DNA of 33,535 nt from Treponema sp. (GTDB lineage Bacteria; Spirochaetota; Spirochaetia; Treponematales; Breznakiellaceae): assembly GCA_009785215.1 (NCBI GenBank), contig WQWU01000029.1, positions 1-33,535 on the forward strand. The letters are read 5' to 3'. The translations under genes were made by a program, and so were the position numbers. Of this stretch, positions 14,876-20,717 are shown piece by piece; within the stretch, counting starts at the first letter, position 1; each line of letters starts with the position of its first letter. A model generated the notes under the pieces. The model was not told where the DNA came from. It did not search any database and saw only the letters and a list, made by a program, of their open reading frames with translations.

Positions 14876-15487
14876 TTAAATCCCGAAAAGACCAACGGTG
14901 CCGGTGCGCCATTCTTCGCGGGCTTCCATTACTATCTTTTCTACCTCGAACCAGTCATTCGCGCGCGGCCCCGGAAGTTCGCGGTTTGTAGAATTACTGA
15001 ATACAATTGTTTTACATCCAAGTTTGCGGAGATTATTAATATTTTCCGGAGCGTCATCGATATAAACATGAGCGCCCACAGCTCCTTTATCATTCATAAA
15101 ACAAATATCCCAATAGGGAATGTCGTAATTATCCAGCCAGTCAACAGTTTGAGTAATTGTTGTACGATGAGAAAATTTTAAAAACAGCCTATGCGTAATA
15201 ATACGAATACGAATTCCCTGATTCGACAATTTTCTTAAAATTGCAGGAGCATGTTCGATTGGTTTCATATCGCCGAAAATATTACGCTGCGTTACAGCAA
15301 ACCTGTGCAGTCTGTCATAACCGCCTAACTCATCTATACCCCATTCGCCAAGGCCGAAAGAAACTTCCGGAGTAAGCGATTCAAGAGGTTTGTTTAACCA
15401 CTCAGCGGCGATAGTGCGAACCGCGCCGTAAAAATCTCCTACGACTCCGTCCAAATCAACGCCAAAAATAAATTTGCTGTTATCCAT
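14876..15487 (-). CDS. HAD-family 5'(3')-deoxyribonucleotidase-like protein
   Basis: A 203-aa HAD phosphatase with the nucleophile motif VDLDGVVGDF (D11 and acid/base D13), a later THR motif (IRIITHR) and a C-terminal acidic motif VYIDDAPENI that would bind Mg2+. The arrangement resembles the NT5C/5'-nucleotidase deoxy-pyrimidine group, which dephosphorylates (deoxy)nucleoside monophosphates; the substrate is inferred. It starts 2 bp after the glgX stop, with its aagga ribosome site inside the glgX end, so the two are translationally linked. Both lie downstream of the NrdR-box-like sites, which fits a role in controlling deoxynucleotide pools. Confidence 0.75.
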   Translation of the reverse strand: MDNSKFIFGVDLDGVVGDFYGAVRTIAAEWLNKPLESLTPEVSFGLGEWGIDELGGYDRLHRFAVTQRNIFGDMKPIEHAPAILRKLSNQGIRIRIITHRLFLKFSHRTTITQTVDWLDNYDIPYWDICFMNDKGAVGAHVYIDDAPENINNLRKLGCKTIVFSNSTNRELPGPRANDWFEVEKIVMEAREEWRTGTVGLFGI

Positions 15488-15489
15488 GA

Positions 15490-17643
15490 TTATCCTTCTT
15501 TGGATATCAATATTACAATGCTTCGGGCTTTTACAGGATAACTGCGCTGAGAAGCCAGCGGTTCTTCGTTCCCCGAAGAAAGTATTTCGTTAGGAGAAGG
15601 AAGCCCTGTATCTACAACGCGATACCAGTGCTTTTTATGGGGCGGTTCAGCCAGTACAAATGATTGAATATCGATATCTGAATTAAACATAATATAAAAA
15701 TCATTATCATCTTTATCTGCTAAAGTATCAGCTTTGCTCCCAAGAAGACGTAATGCAAGATAATAACCTACATCATCCCAATCGGGAACAATTCCTTTTT
15801 CATCGAACCAGCTAATGTCAGGAATTGCCTTATATGCACCTCCCCTGCCGGTATAAAATTCAGGACGCATAAAACCGGGATGACTAAGGCGGAAAGCAAT
15901 CATTTCTTTTGCAAACCGGTATAATTCGGCATTTTTTTCCAATAGCGACCAGTCAAACCACGAAATCTCATTATCCTGACAATAAGCGTTATTGTTTCCT
16001 TTCTGAGTCCGCCCGAATTCATCGCCGCCAAGAAGCATTGGCGTTCCCAGCGAAACCATTAATGTTGCAATAAAATTCTTTATCTGCCGTTCCCGCAGAA
16101 TTTTAACAACGGGATCCCTTGTAGGCCCTTCTGTTCCGTAATTGTAGCTAAGGTTATTGTCGCTTCCATCCCAGCTGTTTTCGCCGTTGTCTTCGTTGTG
16201 CTTGTGGTTGTACGAAACAAGGTCTTTCATTGTAAAACCATCGTGGCTTGTAATAAAATTGATGGAATGAAACGGCTTTCGTCCATCCCGCAGATAAAGG
16301 TCAGAACTGCCTGCTATGCGCGTTGCAAGATAGCGGGTTTCTTTGGGGTCGCCTCTCCAGTATTTACGCACATTGTCACGGTACATATCGTTCCATTCTG
16401 CCCAGCGCCCTCCGGGAAACCAGCCAACCTGATAAGCTCCGCCTGCATCCCATGCTTCTGCAATTATCTTTGTTGAGTTCAAAACAGGATCTTCTGCAAT
16501 TTGTTCAAGAGTAGGAGGATTCTCCATTATTCTTCCGTTTTGGTCGCGCCCAAGAATCGATCCAAGATCAAACCGGAATCCGTCAACATGCATTTCTGTT
16601 ACCCAATAACGCAGACAATCCATGATGAATGTGCGGACAACAGGATGATTGCAGTTAACAGTATTTCCGCAGCCGGAATAATTTTGATAGTAGCGTTTGT
16701 TTTCGTTAAGGATATAATAAATTGAGTTATCAAGACCGCGGAAAGAAAAAGTAGGCCCTTGTTCATTACCCTCTGCTGTATGATTAAAAACAATGTCAAG
16801 AATAACTTCTATTCCTGCTTTATGCAGTTCCCTTACCATTTCTTTAAATTCATTTACCTGTCCGCCGGGAGTTTTATCCGAAGCATACGATCCTTTTGGA
16901 GCAAAAAATGCCGCAGTTGAATAACCCCAGTAGTTGGTAAGTTTTTCTCCTGTCCGCGGATTATGCCTGATAATTTCATTTTCATTAAATTCCTGAACCG
17001 GCAAAAACTCGATGCTTGTAATTCCCAAATCCTTAAAGTACGGAATCTTTTCTATTATTCCGCGGTAAGTTCCAGGATGCTCTACTCCCGAGTTTGGATG
17101 AGCGGTAATTCCCTTTACATGCGCTTCGTAAATTACGCTAAAACGAAGCGGATAGTTAAGAGGGGTGTCACCCTGCCAGTCAAAATTATCATCTATTACA
17201 ATACCTCTTGCTTGATGCGTTATATCATCATCATAGGAATATGTTAAATCTTTGCCGGGTTTTTCATGATCATAACCTGCGCACTTTCCATAATCCCAAT
17301 TACTTATATCTGTTAATGCTTTGGCATACGGATCCAAAAGTGTTTTATGCGGATTAAAACGCTGACCCTTTTCAGGAAAATACGGCCCGTCTGCACGGTA
17401 AAGATAACACGTTCCTGCTTTTAATCCCCTAATGAAACAATGCCAGATATTGCCTGTTTTGTGTTCTCTTTTGTCTAAAGGGATTTCTACCCACGGACTG
17501 TTTTTTTCTGGAGATTCAAAAATAATCAGCGTAACAGATGTGGCGTGCCTTGAAAAAATCGCAAAGTTGACGCCGTCATTTACCAGCGAAGCTCCAAGAG
17601 GCAGCGCTTTACCTGTTTCAGCCACAAGGTTGCAGAGTATCAT
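15490..17643 (-). CDS. glgX: glycogen debranching enzyme (GH13, GlgX/isoamylase type)
   Basis: From the ATG at 17643 the 717-aa enzyme begins MILCNLVAETGKALPLGAS, matching the family start. It has an N-terminal CBM48-like domain (GVNFAIFSRHATSVTLIIF) and a GH13 barrel: IEVILDIVFNHTAEG, the nucleophile region DGFRFDLGSILGRD, the acid region IIAEAWDAGG and FITSHDGFTM. It hydrolyses alpha-1,6 branches of glycogen or limit dextrins. A TTG at 17691 could extend it by 16 residues, but that codon overlaps a TATAAT and the extension has no homology-like features. No other glycogen genes are adjacent; the neighbours are nrdDG and a nucleotidase. Confidence 0.9.
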   Translation of the reverse strand: MILCNLVAETGKALPLGASLVNDGVNFAIFSRHATSVTLIIFESPEKNSPWVEIPLDKREHKTGNIWHCFIRGLKAGTCYLYRADGPYFPEKGQRFNPHKTLLDPYAKALTDISNWDYGKCAGYDHEKPGKDLTYSYDDDITHQARGIVIDDNFDWQGDTPLNYPLRFSVIYEAHVKGITAHPNSGVEHPGTYRGIIEKIPYFKDLGITSIEFLPVQEFNENEIIRHNPRTGEKLTNYWGYSTAAFFAPKGSYASDKTPGGQVNEFKEMVRELHKAGIEVILDIVFNHTAEGNEQGPTFSFRGLDNSIYYILNENKRYYQNYSGCGNTVNCNHPVVRTFIMDCLRYWVTEMHVDGFRFDLGSILGRDQNGRIMENPPTLEQIAEDPVLNSTKIIAEAWDAGGAYQVGWFPGGRWAEWNDMYRDNVRKYWRGDPKETRYLATRIAGSSDLYLRDGRKPFHSINFITSHDGFTMKDLVSYNHKHNEDNGENSWDGSDNNLSYNYGTEGPTRDPVVKILRERQIKNFIATLMVSLGTPMLLGGDEFGRTQKGNNNAYCQDNEISWFDWSLLEKNAELYRFAKEMIAFRLSHPGFMRPEFYTGRGGAYKAIPDISWFDEKGIVPDWDDVGYYLALRLLGSKADTLADKDDNDFYIMFNSDIDIQSFVLAEPPHKKHWYRVVDTGLPSPNEILSSGNEEPLASQRSYPVKARSIVILISKEG

Positions 17644-17649
17644 ATTCAA

Positions 17650-17679
17650 ATTATAATACAAAAAATGAAAAAAAGGAAA
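17650..17679 (-). promoter_or_regulatory. glgX-proximal -10 element six nt before the ATG
   Basis: TATAAT (17650-17655, minus strand) ends exactly 6 nt before the glgX ATG; the best -35 is a weak TTTCCT (17674-17679, 18 bp away). No Shine-Dalgarno precedes the ATG, so leaderless initiation is possible. Confidence 0.45.
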
Positions 17680-17690
17680 GGTGTCTTTCA

Positions 17691-17722
17691 ATTATACAAT
17701 ATGTAGTGTTGTGCACTGTCAA
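17691..17722 (-). promoter_or_regulatory. upstream glgX promoter overlapping NrdR-box-like sites
   Basis: A perfect TTGACA (17717-17722) and a perfect TATAAT (17691-17696) lie on the minus strand, but 20 bp apart, longer than the 17 bp optimum. Such a promoter may be weak or need an activator. The -10 overlaps the proximal NrdR-like site and the -35 sits between the two sites. Confidence 0.45.
17694..17709. promoter_or_regulatory. NrdR-box-like site, proximal
   Basis: atacaatatgtagtgt matches 14 of 16 positions of the published NrdR consensus acaCwAtATaTwGtgt as I recall it. It overlaps the -10 of the upstream glgX promoter. Confidence 0.6.
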
Positions 17723-17725
17723 TAA

Positions 17726-17741
17726 ACACCATATATAGTGT
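17726..17741. promoter_or_regulatory. NrdR-box-like site, distal
   Basis: acaccatatatagtgt matches 15 of 16 positions of the NrdR consensus. It lies 16 bp from the proximal site (32 bp start to start, about three helical turns), the paired spacing known for NrdR operators. Confidence 0.7.
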
Positions 17742-17763
17742 CCTACCCGTATTTGTTTAAGTT

Positions 17764-18261
17764 TCAGGTGTATAAGACGATTTCGCCTTTTTTGTCTGTC
17801 TCTTTCATATTTATCATACGTTGATTTGAAGAGCCGCGGAACTGCAATCCTGCAGAACGAAGTTCGTGAATATATTTTCCGTCTATCAATATATCAGTTG
17901 CAGAAAGAAGTGTTTTTATATCTATATTGTTATTTCCAGATTCAATCAATTCTTCGTATGTATAACCGGAATATGTCACAACATCCAGGCCGATTTTATG
18001 AGCCGCAAGCGCAATCTCTGCAAATTCTCCTGCCTGTAAAAACGGCTCTCCCCCGGAAAAAGTAATACCCTGTATAGTTTTTTTTTGCTTCTTTAAAAAA
18101 CGAATTATCTGCTTTACAGAAAACTCATCTCCTGCACCGGAATCCCAGCTGGCAGGATTATGGCAAAACGGACAGTGATGAAAGCAGCCTTGCGCAAAAA
18201 TTACATATCTTATCCCCGGGCCGTCAACAATACTTTCCGGCGTAATTCCGTATAACCGCAT
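17764..18261 (-). CDS. nrdG: anaerobic ribonucleoside-triphosphate reductase activating protein
   Basis: NrdG (165 aa) is the radical SAM activase that installs the glycyl radical on NrdD. The N-terminus MRLYGITPESIVDGPGIRY and the cluster motif CFHHCPFC (CxxxCxxC) followed by HNPASWD are diagnostic; GITFSGGEPFLQ is also present. Length is typical. It lies 21 bp downstream of nrdD. No Shine-Dalgarno is visible; instead TATAGT (18268-18273) lies 6 nt before the ATG, so it may also have its own leaderless start in addition to nrdD read-through. Confidence 0.95.
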   Translation of the reverse strand: MRLYGITPESIVDGPGIRYVIFAQGCFHHCPFCHNPASWDSGAGDEFSVKQIIRFLKKQKKTIQGITFSGGEPFLQAGEFAEIALAAHKIGLDVVTYSGYTYEELIESGNNNIDIKTLLSATDILIDGKYIHELRSAGLQFRGSSNQRMINMKETDKKGEIVLYT

Positions 18262-18282
18262 TTTATAACTATAACAAAGTCT

Positions 18283-20394
18283 TTAAACTTGATGAACCTG
18301 ACGATGCTGAATTTCTGCAAGTTTACTGTCATTAAACCGGTCAAGCGTTGATAAATAACCTGTGATTCTCCGCACACGGTTAATTCTGTTTCCGCCGCAC
18401 TTGGGGCATATATCTTCGTTTATGACACCGTTTAATCCGCACTCACAGCAAATATCAACAGGAAAATTAACTGCACCGTACCCAATATCTGCATCTGCCA
18501 TCGCCCTAATTATCGATTCAAACGCTTTAAGATTATTCTCCGGCGCCGACTTTAGTTCTACATAAGTAATATGTCCTGCATTGCAGCACTTATGATAAGC
18601 GCCTTCTATTATTACTTTGTCCAAAGCGTTAATCTGATATTCTACGGGAACATGAAACGAGTTGGTATACCATTGTTTATCTGTTACTCCCGGAATTACG
18701 CCGTATTTTTCAATATCAAGCTGGGTAAATTTTCCGCTTAACTGCTCTGCAGGCGTTGCAAGCAGCGTAAAATTTAATCCGTATTTTTTTGTAGCTTCAT
18801 CGCATCTTCTCCGCATATGACTGATAATTACTACTCCAAAAGCCTGCGCTTCCGGGCTTTCGCCGTGATGTTTTCCCATAAGCGCAATAAGACATTCTGC
18901 CAGCCCTATAAACCCAATGCTAAGCGTGCCATTACGGATTGCTTTTTCGATTGTATCGTTAGATGAAAGATTCTCGCTGTCAACATAAAGTTTTTGACCC
19001 ATTAAAAACGGAAAATCTTTTACTTTTAACTGTTTTTGAACATTATAGCGGGTTAATAACTGTTCTACGCAAAGATCGAATATTTCATCCAGATATTTCC
19101 AGAATACTGATATATCTTTATCTGCGCGAATGCCGATACGCGGAAGATTGATGGTTGTAAATGAGAGATTACCTCTGGAGTTTGTCGCATCTTTTCCGTT
19201 ACAGTTTGATATAACGCGCGTCCGGCAGCCCATATACGCGACTTCTTCGCCGCGGAAAGGTTTATTAAAACTTGAATCCATAAAAGAATAAGTAGGGAAA
19301 AGGCGTTTGCACGCAACGCGCATACTTAACTGAAACAAATCGTAATTGGGATCTCCTTCTTCAAAGTTAATATCTTCTTTTAACTTAAAGCACACATTCG
19401 GAAATAAAGGCGATTCGCCTTTTCCCAATCCTTTTTCATAAGCGAGCAGAAAATTTTCAGAAATCATTCTGCCGGCTTCTGTTGTATCAGTGCCGAAATT
19501 AATGCTGGAAAAAGGAACCTGAGCTCCTGCTCTTGAATGCATTGTATTAAGATTGTAGATAAAACCTTCCATTGCCTGATAAATTTCTTCGTTGGTGCGA
19601 TCGTATACAAGTTTTTTTATTTTTTCTTCATCTGCTGTTAATCCCAGTTCTTTTAGATTTTCTCTGATTAATTTTTCCTGTCTGGTTTTTTCCAATTCGG
19701 CATATACAGCCAAATCTCTGTCAAAATATGCAAAAGACTGTCCGCCGTGCATATCATTCTGATTACTCTGCAGAATTATTGCTGCAAGAGATGCAGCTGT
19801 TTTTATGCTTTTCGGAGAACGTATATAACCGTGCCCGTTATTAAAACCTTCGCGCAGAAGGCGATCCAGCGGTATCTGCAGACAGGTTAATGTTTTGCCG
19901 TACCACGATAAATCATGAATATAAATATCGCCGTTTAAATGCGCATTGGCTTCTTTTTCCGGAAGGACACGTTTTAAATAATAATTTTTGGAGGCAAGTT
20001 CTGATATTTGCAGTACCTTTGCAGAGGGGGAATTGCCTACATTGGCATTATCGCGGTTTGTTTCCTGTACGATTTCCGAAACTGCATTCATTAGTTCGCT
20101 TCGCGCTTCTCTTAATCTTGAACGGTTCTCGCGGTATAAAATATATGCTTTGGCTGCTTTAGTAATGCCATGTTCAATTAAAACTGTTTCTGCAATATCC
20201 TGAACATCTTCGACTGTATAATTATCTTCCTTATACTGTTGTTTTATTTTTTTTATTACTTCCAGCGTTAGTTCCATTGCCTTCTGCCGGTCTGTCTCTC
20301 CTACAGCCTGCAGGCACTTAAACAACGCATCTGTTATTTTATTTTCATGAAATTCCTGTGTTCTTCCGTCTCTTTTAATGATTGATGCGAACAT
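18283..20394 (-). CDS. nrdD: anaerobic ribonucleoside-triphosphate reductase
   Basis: NrdD (703 aa from ATG 20394) makes deoxynucleotides from NTPs without oxygen. It has an N-terminal ATP-cone (MFASIIKRDGRTQEF to about residue 95), a catalytic barrel including MGCRTRVISNCNG, a C-terminal zinc site (C649/C652 and C663/C666) and the glycyl-radical loop RRITGYLS with G679. The ATG is preferred over a TTG 57 nt upstream because that TTG is part of the -35 TTGACA of the gene's own promoter, while gaagggg lies just before the ATG. It is coupled with nrdG. No NrdR-like box is visible at its promoter, which is unusual given the boxes after nrdG. Confidence 0.96.
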   Translation of the reverse strand: MFASIIKRDGRTQEFHENKITDALFKCLQAVGETDRQKAMELTLEVIKKIKQQYKEDNYTVEDVQDIAETVLIEHGITKAAKAYILYRENRSRLREARSELMNAVSEIVQETNRDNANVGNSPSAKVLQISELASKNYYLKRVLPEKEANAHLNGDIYIHDLSWYGKTLTCLQIPLDRLLREGFNNGHGYIRSPKSIKTAASLAAIILQSNQNDMHGGQSFAYFDRDLAVYAELEKTRQEKLIRENLKELGLTADEEKIKKLVYDRTNEEIYQAMEGFIYNLNTMHSRAGAQVPFSSINFGTDTTEAGRMISENFLLAYEKGLGKGESPLFPNVCFKLKEDINFEEGDPNYDLFQLSMRVACKRLFPTYSFMDSSFNKPFRGEEVAYMGCRTRVISNCNGKDATNSRGNLSFTTINLPRIGIRADKDISVFWKYLDEIFDLCVEQLLTRYNVQKQLKVKDFPFLMGQKLYVDSENLSSNDTIEKAIRNGTLSIGFIGLAECLIALMGKHHGESPEAQAFGVVIISHMRRRCDEATKKYGLNFTLLATPAEQLSGKFTQLDIEKYGVIPGVTDKQWYTNSFHVPVEYQINALDKVIIEGAYHKCCNAGHITYVELKSAPENNLKAFESIIRAMADADIGYGAVNFPVDICCECGLNGVINEDICPKCGGNRINRVRRITGYLSTLDRFNDSKLAEIQHRQVHQV

Positions 20395-20421
20395 TTTCCC
20401 CTTCCCCCCGGTAAGTTTGTG

Positions 20422-20451
20422 AGTATAGGGTTCTTTCGCAAGTTTTGTCAA
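20422..20451 (-). promoter_or_regulatory. nrdDG promoter
   Basis: On the minus strand TTGACA (20446-20451) and TATACT (20422-20427) are 18 bp apart. Transcription would start about 20415, giving a 20-nt leader with a gaagggg ribosome site before the ATG at 20394. It is back to back with the B12 operon promoter, the two -35 boxes being 16 bp apart. Confidence 0.75.
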
Positions 20452-20467
20452 GTAGCGTATTATACTA

Positions 20468-20496
20468 TTGACATTTCAAAAAAATTTATTTAAACT
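20468..20496 (+). promoter_or_regulatory. promoter of the cobalamin uptake operon
   Basis: TTGACA (20468-20473) and TAAACT (20491-20496) are separated by exactly 17 bp. The predicted transcript start near 20503 coincides with the first bases of the riboswitch P1 stem. Confidence 0.75.
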
Positions 20497-20502
20497 GCAA
20501 AT

Positions 20503-20689
20503 GTATATTTCAAAGGAAGTGGGGTGCGGAATAATATTTCCAATTCCCCCGCTAACCCGTAACTGTAATTGGGAAGATTCTGTCAGGAACTTTAGTTCCA
20601 TAACAGCCACTGTCCGGCCGCTTGATTCAAGCAGCTGAATGGGAAGACTGACAGGAAAAACGCCCATAAGTCAGGAAACTTTGGTATAC
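20503..20689 (+). ncRNA. cobalamin riboswitch aptamer
   Basis: Conserved cobalamin-riboswitch blocks occur in order: ggggtgcggaa, cccccgctaacccgtaactg followed by taa, then the B12-box core cagccactg (20607 region), tgggaag and aagtcaggaaac. P1 can form between GTATA/CAAAG (20503-20515) and CTTTG/TATAC (20679-20689). It precedes a terminator and an operon of B12 transport genes. By family knowledge, adenosyl- or other cobalamins bound here lower expression. Confidence 0.93.
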
Positions 20690-20717
20690 TCGCTTTCGTA
20701 GGAAGCGTATATTTTTT
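20685..20717 (+). terminator. rho-independent terminator of the riboswitch expression platform
   Basis: A 7-bp stem (CGCTTTC 20691-20697 with GGAAGCG 20701-20707, one G-U pair) with a 3-nt loop, extended by TATA/TATA outer pairs, runs into attttttc (20711-20718). Its outer left arm (20685-20688) overlaps the 3' strand of aptamer P1, so ligand state could shift the balance. Confidence 0.7.

Follow-up and report, generated by a model that had tools for sequence, protein, structure and literature searches.

We analysed a 33,535-bp stretch of Treponema sp. DNA (contig WQWU01000029.1), referred to below as the window, which is contig C29 of an assembly (G000) of 1.9 Mb in 54 contigs, 75% complete. 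On its minus strand the window carries an NT5C-type 5′-deoxynucleotidase gene (14876..15487; PF06941, E 7.3e-41), glgX of the glycogen debranching enzyme family (15490..17643; PF00128/PF02922/PF21331), nrdG for the class III ribonucleotide reductase (RNR) activase (17764..18261; Fer4_12/Radical_SAM) and nrdD for a class III RNR with an ATP-cone (18283..20394; PF13597, E 1.4e-194; PF03477). A minus-strand promoter, TTGACA-18-TATACT (20422..20451), precedes nrdD, and a cobalamin riboswitch (20461..20699; RF00174, 46.7 bits) lies on the plus strand ahead of TonB/btu genes. The nearest named relatives of this glgX are Treponema metagenome assemblies, such as WQXI01000039.1 (isolate Emb289P3bin15), a series that presumably comes from termite guts.

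Between nrdG and glgX, 22 bp past the nrdG stop and 50 bp ahead of the glgX ATG, we found two NrdR-type boxes, to which no strand was assigned. Scored against ACACWATATATWGTGT, which we take to be the 16-mer NrdR consensus, box 1 on the glgX side (17694..17709; ATACAATATGTAGTGT) matched at 14/16 positions and box 2 on the nrdG side (17726..17741; ACACCATATATAGTGT) at 15/16, and the 16-bp gap between them (17710..17725, likewise unstranded) contained a minus-strand TTGACA (17722-17717). The boxes, their match scores and their gap were as described in an earlier sequence-only reading of this DNA, and two 16-bp boxes this close to ACACWATATATWGTGT have the sequence expected of an NrdR operator. 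We then scored the boxes with a genus matrix built from 51 pairs in the nrdR and nrdJ promoter regions of relatives, with G000 excluded from training; the consensus of this matrix was ACACTATATATAGTGT, the canonical NrdR box. Box 1 scored 14.3 bits, box 2 scored 22.1 bits and the pair reached 36.4 bits, compared with maxima of 13.6 bits (15-bp gap) and 16.5 bits (16-bp gap) in 6 Mb of simulated first-order Markov DNA. In the 1.9-Mb assembly itself, the window boxes were the sole two sites that departed from ACACWATATRTWGTGT at no more than one position. When up to three mismatches were allowed, this single-box pattern was not enriched in the assembly (51 matches on the forward and 45 on the reverse strand, the reversed control giving 62 and 69), so the strength of the signal lies in close matching together with pairing. 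A degenerate paired pattern with a 16-bp gap had the window pair as its only zero-mismatch match in the assembly and none in the reversed control, and the runner-up (C27:5560-5607) carried three mismatches. Pattern uniqueness and the simulated-DNA scores ruled out a chance match as the origin of the pair.

The NrdR operators of RNR operons in Listeria, Streptococcus and E. coli are described in PMC12051234 as two 16-bp palindromes, mostly 15-16 bp apart, that overlap or lie near the promoter. Compared with the operators in that description, the window pair showed the same layout and the same kind of consensus, and its 16-bp spacing falls within the 15-16 bp required there; however, it is situated between nrdG and glgX rather than upstream of an RNR gene, and it overlaps the promoter of neither an RNR gene nor nrdR. 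By its sequence, the window pair resembles a canonical NrdR operator. Among the matches listed from the open-licence literature, none described NrdR boxes ahead of glgX or in treponemes of termites.

We next examined the presumed operators of the genus. Pairs of at least 25 bits were present in 25 of 30 nrdJ and 25 of 29 nrdR promoter regions (one of the latter through rounding), most of these regions having also trained the matrix, and the score of the window pair was comparable to theirs. Of the 35 genomes with an nrdJ match, 30 had their nrdJ region scored. The training pairs had been picked by a consensus pattern (at least 26 of 32 positions), so their matrix scores are partly circular, and the reversed-sequence control of the pattern overlapped the real range (nrdR: 23-28 against 22-31; nrdJ: 22-28 against 22-30). 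The best box pair overlapped the nrdR ATG in 9/29 genus genomes (e.g. L007, L008, L032, L043), where the box sequence therefore also codes for the protein start. One relative that is 100% complete (G032) had no nrdR match and showed weak pairs at nrdJ (6.3 bits) and between glgX and nrdD (11.2 bits), which is what a dependence of the sites on NrdR would predict. Three genomes speak against a simple rule tying nrdJ pairs to nrdR: G010 and G033 had nrdR yet no pair at nrdJ, and G001 (an 83% assembly) had a 37.2-bit nrdJ pair without an nrdR match.

The gene nrdR itself was found in 51/59 genomes searched and in 29/36 within the genus, the genome of the window being among the seven misses. Both the canonical look of the boxes and the commonness of nrdR in the genus bear out the earlier reading of the pair as an NrdR operator. 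In the 75%-complete assembly of the window, neither nrdR nor the two genes that flank it in G008 and G020, a priA-like gene and a glycosyltransferase gene (the latter named by eye), gave a match. The priA control query matched 31/35 genomes, and its four misses (the window's genome, G001, G004 and G018) were all without an nrdR match too. Since the flanking genes were missing as well and every priA miss was also an nrdR miss, the nrdR block of this genome is probably unassembled. Loss of NrdR from this lineage is thought unlikely, because the nrdR neighbourhood was missing as a block and the genome's own nrdJ region (class II RNR, contig C50) keeps a 33.6-bit pair with a 15-bp gap.

The sequence-only reading had placed a TTGACA/TATAAT promoter between the boxes. 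The TTGACA does sit in the gap and faces glgX, and TTGAC was also found inside the gap of 14/29 best nrdR-promoter pairs; the strong pair near glgX in the relative G014 lacked such a TTGACA. The TATAAT (17691..17696, minus strand; read 17696-17691) overlaps the outer edge of box 1, but it stands 20 bp from the TTGACA, a spacing that is long for a sigma-70 promoter, and only a loose and weak promoter geometry results. A second TATAAT (17650..17655, minus strand) ends 6 bp ahead of the glgX ATG, and relatives have a TATAAT-like -10 at this place too, a few bases ahead of their ATG, whether or not they carry boxes; from this position the glgX mRNA is probably leaderless. A TTG start for glgX at 17691 was considered and rejected, the ATG at 17643 being common to the relatives. 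At nrdD, the promoter at 20451-20422 indeed carried no NrdR box pair, as had been claimed, and it lies 2.7 kb from the window pair.

To follow up the proposal that NrdR control reaches glgX and the nucleotidase, we searched up to 1 kb upstream of glgX (414-1000 bp each) for strong pairs, defined as at least 25 bits, in 29 genus genomes. glgX was present in 35/39 genomes; the 29 scored were 28 of these plus G021 (taken from L166), leaving out G025, with 37 bp upstream only, and G003, G004, G009, G023 and G029, for which no locus was available. Paired boxes upstream of glgX were recovered in 3/29 genomes (the window, G014 and G010), every one with nrdDG as neighbour, and the other 26 had no strong pair there. 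A strong pair thus accompanied glgX in 3/5 genomes with nrdDG adjacent and in 0/24 without (Fisher P = 0.003, ignoring phylogeny). In this count, "not adjacent" means no nrdD on the glgX contig, and some contigs end a few kb from glgX (shortest upstream stretch, 414 bp), where adjacency could be missed. The two nrdDG-adjacent genomes without a strong glgX pair were G032 (11.2 bits) and G033 (no pair, though nrdR is present). Further named glgX loci, down to about 60% identity, gave nothing above 6.2 bits. As a conserved trait, NrdR control of glgX and the nucleotidase is therefore unsupported.

It may still be that NrdR represses a promoter into glgX and the nucleotidase in this lineage, an arrangement gained here through rearrangement that would link dATP to dNMP breakdown and glycogen use. 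The window pair is intact, its TTGACA between the boxes and TATAAT at the box 1 edge recall the nrdR promoters, and no more than 200 bp separates glgX from the nucleotidase gene in 32/53 relatives' loci, all of which favour this reading; the 20-bp spacing of the boxed promoter, the conserved glgX -10 that lies outside the boxes and is kept in box-less relatives, and the 26/29 genomes without a strong pair argue against it, and we consider it rather unlikely. Control by NrdR outside RNR genes has a precedent in topA of P. aeruginosa, which is described in PMC4409342 as activated through a single box; by comparison with that description, the window has a putative operator of paired boxes. A strong operator beside a gene need not mean regulation of that gene, and here orientation and synteny point to a stranded operator instead.

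Gene order in relatives was examined. An nrdD match was found in 15/39 genus genomes. In G014, G010, G032 and G033, nrdD lies on the same contig as glgX and diverges from it, whereas in the window the two genes run in the same direction. In 2/4 of these divergent relatives (G014 and G010) a strong pair was located between glgX and nrdD, upstream of nrdD; in G014 its distance is 57 bp to the glgX ATG and 77 bp to nrdD. We checked up to 1.5 kb around nrdDG in eight relatives, seven of them with upstream sequence (G028 had none and G027 617 bp). A strong pair lay upstream of nrdD in three of them (G014, 77 bp; G010, 310 bp; G023, 52 bp, the last with a distant nrdD type), and 0/8 had a strong pair within 1.5 kb downstream of nrdG, the position it occupies in the window. 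The G029 pair resembled that of G023. Within 330 bp upstream of nrdD in 10 relatives' copies, a full pair was found in G014 only. Moreover, nrdDG was co-directional with the TonB gene in the three relatives with both on the fetched sequence (G010, G022 and G013), and the two are opposed in the window.

Among eight nrdD loci of relatives scanned with Rfam, a cobalamin riboswitch stood directly ahead of nrdD in five (G032, G010, G022, G013 and G025; L131, L132, L134, L135 and L139) and not in G014, G033 or G024, which suggests, from the sequences, B12 control of class III RNR where B12-dependent class II RNR is present. In G008 and G020 the riboswitch lay directly beside glgX, facing away from it. 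The nrdDG genes of Propionibacterium acnes are shown in PMC3848588 with NrdR boxes and an annotated cobalamin riboswitch. Like P. acnes nrdDG as given there, nrdDG of G010 is preceded by both NrdR-type boxes and a cobalamin riboswitch; unlike it, the nrdD of the window has neither control upstream in its own direction.

The window was thus the odd one out both in nrdDG orientation and in the position of the pair, two departures that a single local inversion accounts for. What we observed directly were the boxes with their statistics, the synteny and the gene orientations; with a probability of roughly 55% we interpret the window pair as an nrdDG operator stranded by such an inversion. Of the proposals made in the sequence-only reading, its alternative of an ancestral gene order since rearranged agrees best with these results. 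In the ancestral order, glgX and nrdD would have been divergent with the operator in between, the window pair being a genuine NrdR operator that formerly served nrdDG. The nrdDG block (about 17742-20455) would then have flipped in this lineage, and the nrdD core promoter (TTGACA-18-TATACT) seems to have moved along with its gene. The operator would have stayed in place, now past the end of nrdG and 50 bp ahead of glgX. That NrdR binds the pair and that an inversion took place is inferred from this comparison, as is every effect on expression. After the flip, nrdDG is predicted to be freed from repression by the dATP/ATP-sensing NrdR, so that class III RNR would have escaped NrdR in one lineage, and nrdJ would retain its NrdR operator. 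At the old site, NrdR might at most block a weak internal promoter or read-through into glgX and the nucleotidase.

Several observations count against the inversion. A strong pair was present in just 2/4 divergent relatives, and G033 has nrdR but no pair. G010 and G033 also lack a pair at nrdJ, and G014 alone showed a full pair in the 330 bp ahead of nrdD. The TTGACA that faces glgX in the window pair has no counterpart in the G014 pair. The nearest glgX relatives of the window (G008, G021, G020, G016 and G012) had no nrdD match, and glgX of G008 and G020 adjoins the riboswitch, so several losses, or an independent reversed insertion, must be allowed. The nrdD tree lacked resolution and decided neither way. 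The box gap contains an 8-bp repeat, TGTCAATA, but an inversion by way of it was considered unlikely, since the pair would be split.

Another explanation is an error of assembly or binning, with nrdDG in the living organism still under the control of the boxes. Such an error would be in keeping with an incomplete assembly (75%, 54 contigs). Against it, the junction zones contained no exact inverted repeat longer than 8 bp, and the arms found near both junctions were imperfect (73% over 22 nt and 81% over 16 nt). A misjoin through a repeat is therefore unlikely, and we regard an artefact as very improbable.

Box searches across the genus also brought to light NrdR-operator-like pairs as a dispersed family, which was unexpected. 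In 24/39 genomes, ACGCTATATATAGCGT occurred at least once with no more than one mismatch. Around 70 distinct sites, nearly the whole list of ACGCTATATATAGCGT matches (71 forward matches listed), a partner of at least 12/16 occurred at offsets of 32 bp (33%), 31 bp (21%) and 30 bp (20%), compared with 0-13% at other offsets (17-69 bp). The sequence GGTGNCNGNCACC (at least 8/10) flanked a box with a spacing of exactly 1 bp in 17 cases, and no other spacing from 0 to 44 bp had more than two; these counts come from 105 distinct pairs of at least 22 bits in fetched loci, many found via box searches, and are not genome-wide rates. Complete elements have two NrdR-like boxes 16 bp apart, each flanked on its outer side, after 1 bp, by the palindrome GGTGNCNGNCACC, as at G000:C27:5560-5607 (L050), L034, L049, L284, L286 and L295. 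Some dispersed pairs outscored the nrdR and nrdJ sites as NrdR operators, reaching 44.0 bits in L270. Genes of the Y1_Tnp (RAYT-like) family with box-like repeats beside them were seen at G000:C2:154-1573, with boxes at 154 and 1070 and the transposase gene at 1238-1573, and at G002:C48:1446-2995. The family occurred in 17/39 genomes and was absent from the pair-rich G022, so the link between pairs and transposase is merely suggestive. CGTC-type repeats are mentioned for Spirochaetes in PMC3733652. Like REP/REPIN elements with their RAYT transposases, the genus has dispersed dyad palindromes, some beside Y1 transposase genes; unlike them, each unit contains an NrdR-box-like 16-mer at operator spacing.

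The window pair could then be a member of this REPIN-like family that landed close to glgX without any particular connection to nrdDG, which we judge possible but doubtful. Pairs are scattered in several genomes, and the distance between partners is mostly 31-32 bp. Some have GGTGNCNGNCACC as a flank at exactly 1 bp and some lie beside Y1 transposase genes. The glgX-side flank of the window pair matches the palindrome at 7/10 at the right distance of 1 bp, and that of the G014 pair at 7/10 at 0 bp. However, the other flank of the window pair matches at 3/10, so that, without the palindrome on both sides, it is not a full member of the family. The box-less G020 has GTCATCTTTC beside glgX where the window has GACACCTTTC, and the half match to the palindrome may accordingly be native sequence. 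The single Y1_Tnp match of G000 lies on C2 and not on the window contig C29. Other pairs in the same genome scored lower than the 36.4 bits of the window pair (four REP-like sites at 9-20 bits, one pair at C10 with 27.3 bits and the full C27 element with 29.2 bits), but in other genomes such pairs go up to 44 bits, and score alone does not decide the matter. A bolder reading joins the two histories: termite-gut treponemes may carry mobile REPIN-like NrdR operators, dyads of two boxes 15-16 bp apart between outer palindromes, which move to new genes. The window pair would be one of these, used at first by nrdDG and, since the nrdDG flip, putting glgX and the deoxynucleotidase under dATP control. 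This reading appears improbable to us.

Further pairs were noted elsewhere in the genus. Two strong pairs, L045 (G023:C86) and L046 (G029:C172), lay, as judged by eye, within apparent small elements whose ends are inverted and of the type GAGGCTGTCG-AAAAGT. In two other genomes, box pairs were situated 130 bp (L030, G021:C26) and 196 bp (L039, G022:C11) upstream of an ORF that is followed by a dnaK-like gene, named by eye.
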